A stretch of 8,517 nucleotides of DNA from Candidatus Altarchaeota archaeon (GTDB taxonomy: Archaea > SpSt-1190), in assembly GCA_030590165.1 (NCBI GenBank), contig JAUUZA010000029.1, positions 1 to 8,517 of the forward strand. The letters are read 5' to 3'. Made by a program: the position numbers and the translations under genes. This document shows, in pieces, positions 4,961 to 8,446 of the stretch. The notes under the pieces are model-generated. The model ran no database searches. It saw nothing but the letters and a program-made list of their open reading frames with translations, and was not told the origin of the DNA. Position 1 is the first letter of the stretch. The number at the start of each line of letters is the position of its first letter.

Positions 4961-6478
4961 TTAAAATTCAGATCTTTCCATATCGGCCAAAAGAAGTTTC
5001 TCCTTAAAGTCCTGTTTTGGATAATCAATAGTTTTGCCTTTAATTCCTGTTTTAGTTTTTTGGATATTCATCTGAATTCCTTTATGTGTTCTAACAGAAA
5101 CAGTTTCATTTTCTACTTCTCTTTTTCCAACAACAGCAATTAATGCAACTTTGTTAAGTTCTGCATTCCTTATTCTTTTATTCAATGTGCCTTCTGAATC
5201 AATAGCAGCTCTAATTCCTGATGCCCTCAAATCATTGACTAAATTTTGTGCATATTCTTTTTGGTCATCATTAATTGGTAAAACTCTTAGTTGTTCTGGA
5301 GAAAGCCAAAGTGGTAGACGCCCTTTTGAACTTTCAATTATTACTGACATAAATCTCTCGAGTGAACCAAGTACTGCAAAGTGAACCATTACTGGTCTTT
5401 GATGCTTGCCTTCAGTATCAACATAACTCATCTTGAAATTTTCTGGCATGAAAAAGTCAGTTTGAATTGTTGTCAATTGCCACCATCGTGCCATATTATC
5501 TTTGACATATACATCAATTTTTGGGCCATAAAATGAACCGTCACCTTCTTCAATTTCATACTCAACTTTAACTTCTTTTAATGCTTCTTTCAACCCTTTT
5601 TCTGCCTTGTCCCAAAACTCTTGGGAACCCATTGCATTATCTGGCTTTGTTGCTAATTTAATTTTATACTCAAATCCAAAGAGGGCATAAACTTTCTGAG
5701 ATGCTTTTATTATTTTTATTACTTCTTCCTGAATTTGTTCAGGAGTTACAATGAAGTGATGGTCGTCCTGTGTAAAGGCCCAAGTTCTTGATATACCATG
5801 GAGTTCTCCACTTTGTTCCTTCCTATAATCCATAGCAAATTCTGCATATCTTATTGGAAGGTCTTTGTAACTTCTTGGTTTGAATCTGTAAATTTGTATG
5901 TGTAAAGGACAATTCATGGCTTTTATTCCCCATTCCTCACCTTCTTGCTCCCAAATAAACATCTTATCTCTATAATGTTTGTAGTGACCACTCATTTTCC
6001 ACAATGTTGCTTTTGCAATATGAGGAGTTCCAACTTCCTCACATCCAAGTTTTCCATTCACTTCTCTCATTAATTCAATTAATTTATTTTTTATTATCAT
6101 TCCTTTCGGATGAAATAAAGGTAAACCTTGCCCGACTATGTCTTCTTGAATATGGAACCAATCACATTGTTCACCAATAAATCTATGGTCTCTTGTCATT
6201 CGTTCACTATAGTCAACAGTCCATTTATCTAAGTCTTTTTTATTATCAAATGCAACAAGCCAAATTCGTTGAACTTCTTTTCCACTTTCTTTGTCTAAAG
6301 CTGAACCTGCATTAATTACTTTTACAAATTTTTTCTTAGCTTCAAATTTTTTTTCGAGTGAAATATAATTTTCTTTTGTTAAGGGTGTTGTTGTATCCAA
6401 ATCAAACCATAATTGTTCTTCTCTGTGTCCAGAATTTAGGACTTTTCCGATACTCTCTAATTCATTTTTTATTTCCAT
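4961..6478 (-). CDS. thrS: Threonyl-tRNA synthetase lacking editing domain
   Basis: Class II aminoacyl-tRNA synthetase of 505 residues that charges tRNA-Thr. The catalytic core begins near RDHRFIGEQ (96-104). Zinc ligands are C190 (in MNCPLH), H241 (in TQDDHH) and H366 (in PVMVHF). Motif 2 arginines R219 and R231 are present. Motif 3 is AVLGSLERF (368-376). The C-terminal anticodon-binding domain follows WLSPEQLRVLPI. The first 95 residues keep only the flanks of the bacterial N2 editing domain (FDLDTTTPLTKENYISLEKK, then EVQRIWLVAFDNKKDL). TGS, the HxxxH motif and the Cys/His editing site are missing, and no archaeal DTD-like domain replaces them. The layout resembles the crenarchaeal catalytic-only enzyme. 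I choose ATG 6478 because AGGTG lies 6 bases upstream. An in-frame GTG at 6487 would overlap that SD. A terminator follows directly. Confidence 0.95.
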   Translation of the reverse strand: MEIKNELESIGKVLNSGHREEQLWFDLDTTTPLTKENYISLEKKFEAKKKFVKVINAGSALDKESGKEVQRIWLVAFDNKKDLDKWTVDYSERMTRDHRFIGEQCDWFHIQEDIVGQGLPLFHPKGMIIKNKLIELMREVNGKLGCEEVGTPHIAKATLWKMSGHYKHYRDKMFIWEQEGEEWGIKAMNCPLHIQIYRFKPRSYKDLPIRYAEFAMDYRKEQSGELHGISRTWAFTQDDHHFIVTPEQIQEEVIKIIKASQKVYALFGFEYKIKLATKPDNAMGSQEFWDKAEKGLKEALKEVKVEYEIEEGDGSFYGPKIDVYVKDNMARWWQLTTIQTDFFMPENFKMSYVDTEGKHQRPVMVHFAVLGSLERFMSVIIESSKGRLPLWLSPEQLRVLPINDDQKEYAQNLVNDLRASGIRAAIDSEGTLNKRIRNAELNKVALIAVVGKREVENETVSVRTHKGIQMNIQKTKTGIKGKTIDYPKQDFKEKLLLADMERSEF

Positions 6479-6554: not shown

Positions 6555-6668
6555 CTAGGGAGAACTCGAATTTAAAGGTTTCCAAGTATATCCACACCTA
6601 GCACATTTGTAAGAATTCATGTATCGTTTGAATCTTGAACTATTACACGCCGGACATTTCTTTATCAT
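6555..6668 (-). CDS. Small zinc-ribbon protein, 37 aa
   Basis: A 37-residue ORF with two CxxC knuckles: CPAC (5-8) and CARC (22-25), the latter followed by GYTWKP. The 13-residue spacing is typical of a single zinc ribbon binding one Zn2+ through four cysteines. Such minimal ribbons usually contact nucleic acid or other proteins, but no specific family is recognisable. The ATG at 6668 has a strong SD: AGGTGAT sits 3-5 bases upstream and matches the 16S anti-SD well. It lies between the ferredoxin-ATPase operon and thrS on the same strand. The region after its TAG stop continues open in another frame up to the thrS SD, so the annotated stop could reflect a frameshift (see findings). Confidence 0.7.
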   Translation of the reverse strand: MIKKCPACNSSRFKRYMNSYKCARCGYTWKPLNSSSP

Positions 6669-6725
6669 TTAATCACCTTTTTGGTCGAGCTTTTTAGAAA
6701 AAAGCTCGGGGCATTTTTTTATCAT
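6669..6725 (-). CDS. 18-codon mini-ORF, possible leader peptide
   Basis: The frame from ATG 6725 encodes MIKKCPELFSKKLDQKGD and stops with a TAA directly abutting the ATG of the zinc-ribbon ORF. It has its own SD, AAGGAG, 8 bases upstream, within the 18-bp gap after the downstream ferredoxin-ATPase gene. Its first six residues, MIKKCP, equal those of the zinc-ribbon protein, and the DNA of both starts is nearly the same. It contains a perfect 10-bp hairpin. It may be a translated leader, a remnant of a duplicated zinc-ribbon gene, or a chance frame. I see no way to choose from sequence alone. Confidence 0.35.
   Translation of the reverse strand: MIKKCPELFSKKLDQKGD
6672..6678 (-). promoter_or_regulatory. 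Strong Shine-Dalgarno of the zinc-ribbon ORF
   Basis: AGGTGAT lies 3 bases (5 from the AGGTG core) upstream of ATG 6668, seven bases past the hairpin arm. Its close fit to the 16S rRNA 3' end supports translation of this very small ORF. Confidence 0.6.
6686..6708. other. Perfect 10-bp hairpin with 3-base loop
   Basis: CGAGCTTTTT (6686-6695) and its exact complement AAAAAGCTCG (6699-6708) flank AGA. On the plus strand it is followed by GGGCA and seven T, like an intrinsic terminator, although no plus-strand gene lies near. On the minus strand it sits inside the mini-ORF and upstream of the zinc-ribbon SD, where it could act as an RNA structure controlling that gene or protecting the 3' end of the ATPase operon mRNA. 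Confidence 0.7.
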
Positions 6726-6743
6726 ACTTTAAACTCCTTATAT

Positions 6744-7607
6744 CTACTTTGAAGCCGTTTCAATATTTTTAATTATACTTTCAAATAATGGCTCAAATTT
6801 TTTATTATACACAACTGGAGGCATCAAATTAACAATAGCATTAACAAAATCAATATCATAAGGAATCTTACCTAAAATCGGTATTTTTTCAGTTTCTAAC
6901 ATATCTTCAATTGTTTTAACAAAATCTGGATTTATATCCACTTTATTAATTATAACTCCATATTTTATCCTAAAATGTTTCACAACTTCGAGTGCACGTT
7001 TTAAATCTGAAAGCGCTGAAGGAGTTGGTTCAGTCACTGCAACTACAAAATCACTTCCTTTTATTGAAGATATAACTGGACAACCTATACCTGCAGAAGC
7101 ATCAATAATCATAATTTGATGCTCGGTTTTACTGGCTTTTTCTTTTAGTAAATTAATTATTTCTCCTGACCCTGATTGGCCAGTTTTCAATTGACCACTA
7201 AAAACAGGAAAATCTTTTTTTGCTGAACCTATCCAACCATTCACAACTTTTTCTGTTTTTATTGCACCCTTTGAACAAAATAATTCACAAGCTCCACAAC
7301 CTTCACATAAGAAGGGGTTTATGTTAAGCCCTTTTTCATCAATAGTGATTGCAGAAAATTCACACACATCTTTACATTTTTCATATCCCTCAAATTTTGG
7401 TTTAATTACTCTTGCAACTTCAGTAGTTGAAATTTCTTCTTTTTCAAAATCTTCTTCTTTTAATCCCAAACATAATCCTAAATTTGGAGCATCAACATCA
7501 CAATCAACTGCAATAACACTTTTCTCTCTTGAAAATAAAACTGCCAAAGAAGAAGCTATACTACTCTTTCCAACGCCTCCCTTACCCGATAAAACTGTTA
7601 TTTTCAT
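6744..7607 (-). CDS. MinD-type ATPase with degenerate ferredoxin insert
   Basis: SIMIBI-class P-loop ATPase of 287 residues, of the MinD superfamily with an inserted ferredoxin domain (COG1149 type). The deviant Walker A SGKGGVGKS is at 7-15, DCDVDAPN at 35-42, the Walker B region IMIIDASAG at 165-173, and the family's VTEPTPSALSDL at 191-202. The ferredoxin insert (about 70-120) keeps C78 and C82 plus C101, C104, C107 and C111. The first two cysteines of motif 1 are replaced by F72 and Y75, so C82/C101/C104/C107 can hold one [4Fe-4S] cluster and the other site is incomplete. The start overlaps the stop of its paralogue (ATGA), with GAGG 8 bases upstream. Homologues come as tandem pairs, some in the Desulfovibrio orange-protein (ORP) operon near NifX-like proteins. 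The exact role is unknown. Confidence 0.9.
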   Translation of the reverse strand: MKITVLSGKGGVGKSSIASSLAVLFSREKSVIAVDCDVDAPNLGLCLGLKEEDFEKEEISTTEVARVIKPKFEGYEKCKDVCEFSAITIDEKGLNINPFLCEGCGACELFCSKGAIKTEKVVNGWIGSAKKDFPVFSGQLKTGQSGSGEIINLLKEKASKTEHQIMIIDASAGIGCPVISSIKGSDFVVAVTEPTPSALSDLKRALEVVKHFRIKYGVIINKVDINPDFVKTIEDMLETEKIPILGKIPYDIDFVNAIVNLMPPVVYNKKFEPLFESIIKNIETASK

Positions 7608-8446
7608 AGACTCAACCTCTCAAGTTTCTTTGCCATTTCCTCAATATTTTTATGAACTATTGGTTTTCCTCTAGAATAATCTTCAATAATCTTTCTTGAA
7701 TAAGGAAGTTCTCCAAATATATTCACTTTTTTTTCTTCTAAAATTTTTAAAACTAAATTTTTATCACCTATTGTAGATTTATTGATTACAACTTCATATT
7801 TTAATTTTAATTCCTTACACAAATCTAAAATAAGATTTAAATCATGAACCCCCAAAGGCGTTGGTTCAGTAACAGCTAAAACAAAATCAACTCCCTCTAA
7901 TGCAGCAACAACCGGACAATGTGTTCCTGCAGCAGTATCTATTATTGTAAAATCATATTCTTTTTCTTGTGAAAGCTCTCTTGCTTTTCTTATAACCCTC
8001 ACACCTTCCATTTGAGTTGGAATTATTTCACCAGAAATTAAATCTAAACCTGATGTTTCATCCTTCCCAATCTTTACATATCCAGTTAATTTTTTTCCCC
8101 TACTTATTGCACCAGTCGGACAAATCTTTTCACAAACACCACAACCATTACATTGTTCAATAAAGAAGAGGGGAAATTTGTCTTTTACAAAAACTATTGC
8201 ATTTGACTTACAGTTCTGGGCACATTTGCCACATTTTGTACATTTAGACTCATCTAAAACAGGAATCATTTGATATACTTTTTCTATTTCTTTTCGCTCA
8301 ATACCTAGGATAAGGTGGTCATTTGGACAATCAACATCACAATCAACCAACTGAACCTTGTGCCTCTTAGAAAGTTCATTTGCAAGAGCAGTGGCTATTG
8401 AGGATTTTCCAGTTCCCCCTTTACCTCCAGTAATAGCAATAATCAT
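7604..8446 (-). CDS. MinD-type ATPase with 2[4Fe-4S] ferredoxin insert
   Basis: Paralogue of the next gene downstream, 280 residues. Deviant Walker A GGKGGTGKSS at 7-16, DCDVDCPN at 35-42 with an extra Cys at 40, Walker B region FTIIDTAAGTHCPV at 166-179 with C177, and VTEPTPLGVHDL at 192-203. The ferredoxin insert is complete: C69, C72, C75, C79 and C99, C102, C105, C109-P, enough for two [4Fe-4S] clusters. This is the redox-complete member of the pair. The coupled genes suggest a heterodimer in which ATP hydrolysis is linked to electron transfer or metal-cluster handling. That is inference from family and arrangement, and the substrate is unknown. ATG 8446 overlaps the preceding stop (ATGA) and has GAGG 9 bases upstream. 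Confidence 0.92.
   Translation of the reverse strand: MIIAITGGKGGTGKSSIATALANELSKRHKVQLVDCDVDCPNDHLILGIERKEIEKVYQMIPVLDESKCTKCGKCAQNCKSNAIVFVKDKFPLFFIEQCNGCGVCEKICPTGAISRGKKLTGYVKIGKDETSGLDLISGEIIPTQMEGVRVIRKARELSQEKEYDFTIIDTAAGTHCPVVAALEGVDFVLAVTEPTPLGVHDLNLILDLCKELKLKYEVVINKSTIGDKNLVLKILEEKKVNIFGELPYSRKIIEDYSRGKPIVHKNIEEMAKKLERLSL

Follow-up and report, generated by a model that had tools for sequence, protein, structure and literature searches.

Probable insertion of a dispersed 30-nt hairpin, with target duplication, into the start of an archaeal zinc-ribbon gene

Results

A hairpin lies between two copies of a zinc-ribbon gene start

The mini-ORF and hairpin found ahead of a zinc-ribbon gene in a Candidatus Altarchaeota archaeon are most probably the scar of a 30-nt dispersed hairpin inserted into the start of that gene with duplication of its target. 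The window, a stretch of 8,517 nucleotides (contig JAUUZA010000029.1), comes from a 724-kb draft assembly (genome G000), and the features discussed all lie on its minus strand. Domain searches identified a pair of MinD-type ATPases with an inserted ferredoxin domain, the first at 7604–8446 and the second, upstream of the mini-ORF, at 6744–7607; this pair (6744–8446) is absent or weakly matched in other genomes of the hairpin family and is found paired in distant archaea. The mini-ORF follows at 6669–6725 (18 codons, translated as MIKKCPELFSKKLDQKGD*) and then a zinc-ribbon protein of 37 amino acids (6555–6668, CPxC...CxxC), which was assigned from homologues elsewhere and from its top Pfam matches, these being zinc ribbons that all score under their curated cut-offs. 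The downstream gene (4961–6475) encodes a class II aminoacyl-tRNA synthetase, probably of the threonyl type as judged from its domain set.

As described in the sequence-only reading of this locus, the TAA of the mini-ORF directly precedes the zinc-ribbon ATG at 6668, SD-like motifs stand before both starts (AAGGAG for the mini-ORF and AGGTGAT for the zinc ribbon), and a perfect 10-bp hairpin with arms CGAGCTTTTT and AAAAAGCTCG and the loop TCT occupies 6708–6686. The folding energy of the hairpin region was −19.6 kcal/mol, compared with −12.4 ± 2.8 in shuffled sequences (z −2.6). The full element, CGAGCTTTTT-TCT-AAAAAGCTCG-ACCAAAA, is 30 nt long (6679–6708), made up of the 23-nt hairpin CGAGCTTTTTTCTAAAAAGCTCG and a conserved tail, ACCAAAA, and it matches the family covariance model R1 with 35.5 bits (E 1.2e-5).

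The repeated peptide MIKKCP, which had prompted the suggestion of a decayed duplicate, reflects a real local duplication of the gene start, with a flank alignment that beats all but 3 of 1000 shuffles. The gapped alignment pairs AGGAGTTTAAAGTATGATAAAAAAATGCCC (6738–6709) with AGGTGATTAAATGATAAAGAAATGTCC (6678–6652), so that the SD is included in the duplication: the upstream copy holds the SD AGGAG, the ATG, and the first 17 nt of the gene, and the downstream copy, from which the intact zinc-ribbon ORF starts, holds the SD AGGTGAT, the ATG, and the first 17 nt. The duplicated start words read AGG...ATGATAAARAAATGYCC, with CGAGC...ACCAAAA between them, and the duplication is imperfect, with a core identity of 15/17. 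The upstream copy terminates at the hairpin foot and the downstream copy begins at the first base after ACCAAAA; because there is no filler at this junction, the insert corresponds exactly to the 30-nt element. Since the element sits exactly between two copies of ~30 nt (SD, ATG, and six codons), the mini-ORF represents the original gene start, now continuing into the insert. In a sister genome (G001, locus L049), a zinc-ribbon homologue likewise has GAGCTTTTT...AAAAACCTCGACCAAAAGGAGG ahead of its own start.

The hairpin belongs to a dispersed archaeal family

Searches of 297 archaeal genomes with AAAVCTCGACCAAAA returned eight matches in G001, four in G003, two in G004, two in G005, and a single match in each of G000 and G006, whereas the backwards control of this motif gave no matches in these six genomes. 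The relaxed motif AAAAGNNNNAYCAAAA outnumbered its control by 42 to 1 in G001, 33 to 5 in G005, and 18 to 1 in G006, compared with only 7 to 4 in the window genome, where the window copy is the sole strong match among the stretches examined. Hairpins of the family shape, with the tail A[C/T]CAAAA after the stem, number up to ~40 per sister genome, and a covariance-model survey, for which the E-values are rough, detected them in 110 of the 394 archaeal genomes covered. Contig ends at G001:C38, C39, C45, C50, and C13 show draft breaks within or beside hairpin copies, and copy numbers in these genomes are therefore probably underestimated.

The stem is conserved as a structure. An exact complementary 5′ arm was present in 81 of 131 tail-search matches, which were gathered without conditioning on pairing, compared with a mean of 6.9 (maximum 15) when the arms were shuffled. 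Stem pairs 1, 2, and 4 vary on both sides in an alignment of 35 28-mers; this alignment was selected for pairing and is therefore descriptive only, with the shuffled-arm comparison serving as the fair structure test. The base beside AAAAG is linked to the Y of AYC (C with C in 37 of 38, T with T in 29 of 29), which could mean descent by subfamilies or an additional contact. In the flanks of 106 hairpins the tag A[C/T]CAAAA lies on the 3′ side, by construction of the search, and the 5′ side consists of non-conserved target sequence.

Rfam searches of the window and nine hairpin-rich loci returned no family covering the hairpins; the matches nearby were tRNAs and an HgcC hit below threshold. The HgcC match (33.6 bits, gathering threshold 50) lies at 265–395 on the minus strand of L318 in genome G356, immediately beside a hairpin that recurs in L317 and L319. 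No account of the motif was found in the literature, whether searched by its letters or by a description of it, and as far as was found the family is without a name.

Family copies are flanked by target duplications and favor tRNA 3′ ends

Direct target repeats flank roughly one in four to one in three family copies. Ungapped flank repeats scoring at least 12 were found at 34 hairpins, a set that takes in a few loci outside the family, compared with none in the reversed-flank control; gapped repeats at the same score were found at 22 of 75 hairpins, compared with 0.3 expected. The repeats are of variable length, about 12–30 bp and longer in tandem arrays, and include perfect repeats of 29 bp at L093, 26 bp at the start of a TatD-type gene (L142), and 25 bp at L085, together with a 23-bp repeat of tRNA-end sequence at L228 and one of 18 bp at L227. 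Most hairpins show no detectable duplication and may be old copies or hairpins of other origin.

Mature tRNA 3′ ends host 34 of 94 non-redundant family hairpins, compared with 1.0 expected from random positions, and all 34 are on the tRNA strand with the foot at most 3 nt from the tRNA end. As the 94 hairpins come from loci fetched for holding hairpins, these densities are not genome-wide rates; orientation and distance are unaffected. At L228, L231, L074, and L243 the tRNA end itself is duplicated. The tandem case at L096 (1414–1516, minus strand) comprises two 73-nt units before an intact tRNA-Ser gene, and each unit joins a duplicate of the tRNA-Ser 5′ end to a hairpin. Apparent tRNA introns with a hairpin were noted at L090 (about 1486, minus), L273 (1501, minus), L259, and L264; by sequence, the copies at L090 and L273 look like hairpins within a tRNA-Arg(CCT) intron, with exons ...ACAGCCTCCTA and AGCTGT..., and ARAGORN did not detect the L090 tRNA gene.

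The strongest alternative to insertion is that the hairpin is not mobile but serves a function in stopping transcription or in RNA processing, as a tRNA 3′ trailer and at gene ends, with the flanking repeats arising by replication slippage at the palindrome. The strict placement and orientation at tRNA ends would fit such a role, as would the copy that directly follows a stop codon at L271, the compensatory changes that preserve the stem, and the T-runs on both strands. Slippage, however, copies existing sequence and brings in no hairpin common to other sites; the 26-bp perfect repeats at the L142 gene start need an insertion event, and the four duplicated tRNA ends likewise stand against it. 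For the window's family we consider this explanation unlikely, while still giving it appreciable weight. In distant archaea, among them genomes that seem Methanocaldococcus-like and Thermococcus-like from their size and gene content, the same hairpin follows stop codons or forms part of composite repeats, and clear target repeats are mostly lacking. Mobility and a terminator or processing role are equally likely there, and only for the window's family and a few other cases is the insertion model firm. A composite repeat at L295–L300 (genome G129), almost unchanged across six sites, consists of CAACCTTTTAAGAAAAGGTTGATCAAAA, then a CTTATGGGTATACCAATAGGGCGTGAGTCCTATGG hairpin that is conserved, and a further GTTGATCAAAAC; in another archaeal family (L068 and L082, G083) CGAGCTTTAAAAAACCTCGACCAAAA units form tandem arrays with a spacing of 48–52 nt.

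The hairpins differ from known repeat families and their movers

REP sequences are described as dispersed, multicopy single hairpins of 20–40 nt with a conserved tag on one side, foldable as RNA and sometimes located within genes (PMC3733652). The window family shares these traits with the RAYT-associated GTAG/CGTC REPs but carries its tag, A[C/T]CAAAA, on the 3′ side and lacks the GTAG/CGTC tetranucleotides; its young copies also lie between 12–30-bp target repeats, its stem varies by compensation rather than keeping a fixed sequence, and no Y1/RAYT gene was found in its draft genomes. Many extragenic palindromes have been listed for Methanocaldococcus and Pyrococcus genomes by RepRanger (PMC12306157). 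That work gives counts and motif similarity, and no description was found in it of the present motif with its tail, of target repeats, or of placement at tRNA ends (PMC12306157). MITEs are short, non-coding, palindromic, AT-rich elements with direct repeats around young copies (PMC10969869). The family resembles them as a short inverted-repeat element in dispersed copies and, for roughly one copy in three or four, in having a flanking target duplication. It differs in being a bare hairpin of 28–40 nt whose repeats are long and variable, where one transposase would typically give a fixed duplication length.

Integration of the casposon or CRISPR type by Cas1 produces target duplications and uses tRNA 3′ ends as targets, as in the hairpin family; Cas1 was not found in the family genomes and the repeat length is not fixed. 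Movement by an integrase of known type, whether a REP/RAYT or IS200/IS605 Y1 transposase, a Cas1-type integrase, or reverse transcriptase-driven insertion, would account for several traits: RAYT and IS200 systems share the palindrome and conserved 3′ tail, casposons the long target repeats and tRNA 3′ targets, and retroposition the A-rich 3′ end and variable repeats. Searches for Y1_Tnp (PF01797) in the drafts G000–G006 and G009 gave no match, with control genomes positive; Cas1 (PF01867) gave none in the same set and was found in 10 other genomes, and RVT_1 gave none in the seven family genomes, again with positive controls. The family genomes are drafts of 72–90% completeness, so that the absence of all three genes from these seven makes the Y1, Cas1, and reverse transcriptase routes less likely, not impossible. 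With the GTAG/CGTC tags also lacking, a mover of known type appears improbable. To our knowledge, no autonomous element is related to the hairpin family, with the search having covered the Y1, Cas1, and reverse transcriptase families.

The mini-ORF is not conserved as a regulatory leader

Among other possible roles, the sequence-only reading had suggested a regulatory leader, with mini-ORF translation opening the hairpin and bringing ribosomes to the next start, and it looked to conservation in relatives as a check. A dedicated leader of this kind would control expression of the zinc ribbon and of the threonyl-tRNA synthetase. Leader-peptide attenuators likewise have a short ORF overlapping a hairpin ahead of a gene; the window ORF and hairpin differ from them in having no control codons and in not being conserved along with the gene. 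At L045 (genome G006) a zinc ribbon and a ThrRS-type synthetase, and at L050 (genome G004) a DUF134-type gene and a zinc ribbon, occur with neither hairpin nor mini-ORF. These insert-free loci are diverged in sequence rather than strain-level empty sites, because the nearest relatives belong to other genera. The hairpin sequence is moreover common to tRNA ends and unrelated genes. The mini-ORF contains no Thr codons, despite the ThrRS downstream, and no run of regulatory codons; Thr attenuation was ruled out on the former ground. Loss of stem and mini-ORF where the zinc ribbon is kept is the outcome that the sequence-only reading had named as refuting its proposal, and a dedicated leader-peptide switch is not supported; the idea of a two-peptide unit found no support either.

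What speaks for a leader is the geometry, with the hairpin between two starts and the stop flush with the second, and this geometry recurs. The distance from the mini-ORF stop to the restart codon is 0 in the window, +4 nt at the TatD-type gene start (L142), and +8 nt at L049, where the insertion is at the second zinc ribbon after a DUF134 gene; the fourth gene-start insertion (L102) gives an in-frame fusion. Simulated random insertions placed a stop within −5 to +10 of the restart in 15% of cases, so that three coupled insertions of four are mildly unexpected (binomial about 0.01, for a small sample that was not blindly chosen). A dedicated leader is nonetheless very improbable, ranking below a mover of known type. 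The recurrence suggests instead that the insertions tolerated are those that keep ribosomes flowing into the gene, and it is plausible that translational coupling at such sites lets the gene survive. Of the mechanism proposed earlier, the hand-over of ribosomes from the mini-ORF to the zinc-ribbon start is possible and is the only part left standing, as a consequence of insertion and not its purpose, and the dedicated switch falls away.

A chance palindrome in a slipped gene-start duplicate, unrelated to the other hairpins, would suit the window copy being the only strong match seen in its genome but is scarcely credible given its 15-base identity with sister-genome copies, where the backwards control has zero matches, and the identical architecture at L049 and L142; it was ruled out by the sister-genome motif copies and the excess of flank repeats over controls.

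Discussion

The favored reading, insertion with target duplication, is well supported, and anatomy and parallel cases point to the following course. The 30-nt hairpin with ACCAAAA would have entered about 17 nt into the zinc-ribbon coding sequence, and about 30 nt of target (the SD, ATG, and six codons) would have been duplicated, leaving one copy on each side. The upstream copy would then have become the 18-codon mini-ORF running through the hairpin, with its stop flush with the new ATG. With the initiation region still complete in the downstream copy, the zinc-ribbon gene can continue to start normally. Ribosomes ending the mini-ORF probably re-initiate at the zinc-ribbon ATG, which would help to explain why an insertion inside a transcription unit is tolerated. 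The element itself belongs to a large family of archaeal hairpin insertions, conserved in structure, that favor gene boundaries and especially mature tRNA 3′ ends; the T-runs it carries might, in addition, stop transcription.

More tentatively, and short of an even case, we propose that ~28-nt mobile hairpins are widespread in archaea and are recognized by their shape and A[C/T]CAAAA tail and not by sequence. Their insertion sites would be gene boundaries, chiefly the positions directly following mature tRNA 3′ ends, where they take one orientation, and the target duplications would be long and variable, produced by machinery other than a Y1 transposase, Cas1, or reverse transcriptase.

Of greater interest than the window locus is the hairpin family as a whole. 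A tiny hairpin with long target duplications, a stem variable in sequence and conserved in structure, and a strict orientation at tRNA 3′ ends falls outside standard descriptions of REPs and MITEs. If these hairpins are mobile, an undescribed route of insertion would be active in tiny, reduced archaeal genomes. The family also offers a concrete way in which gene starts may be duplicated and overlapping mini-ORFs created without regulatory leaders, which is a trap for annotation.
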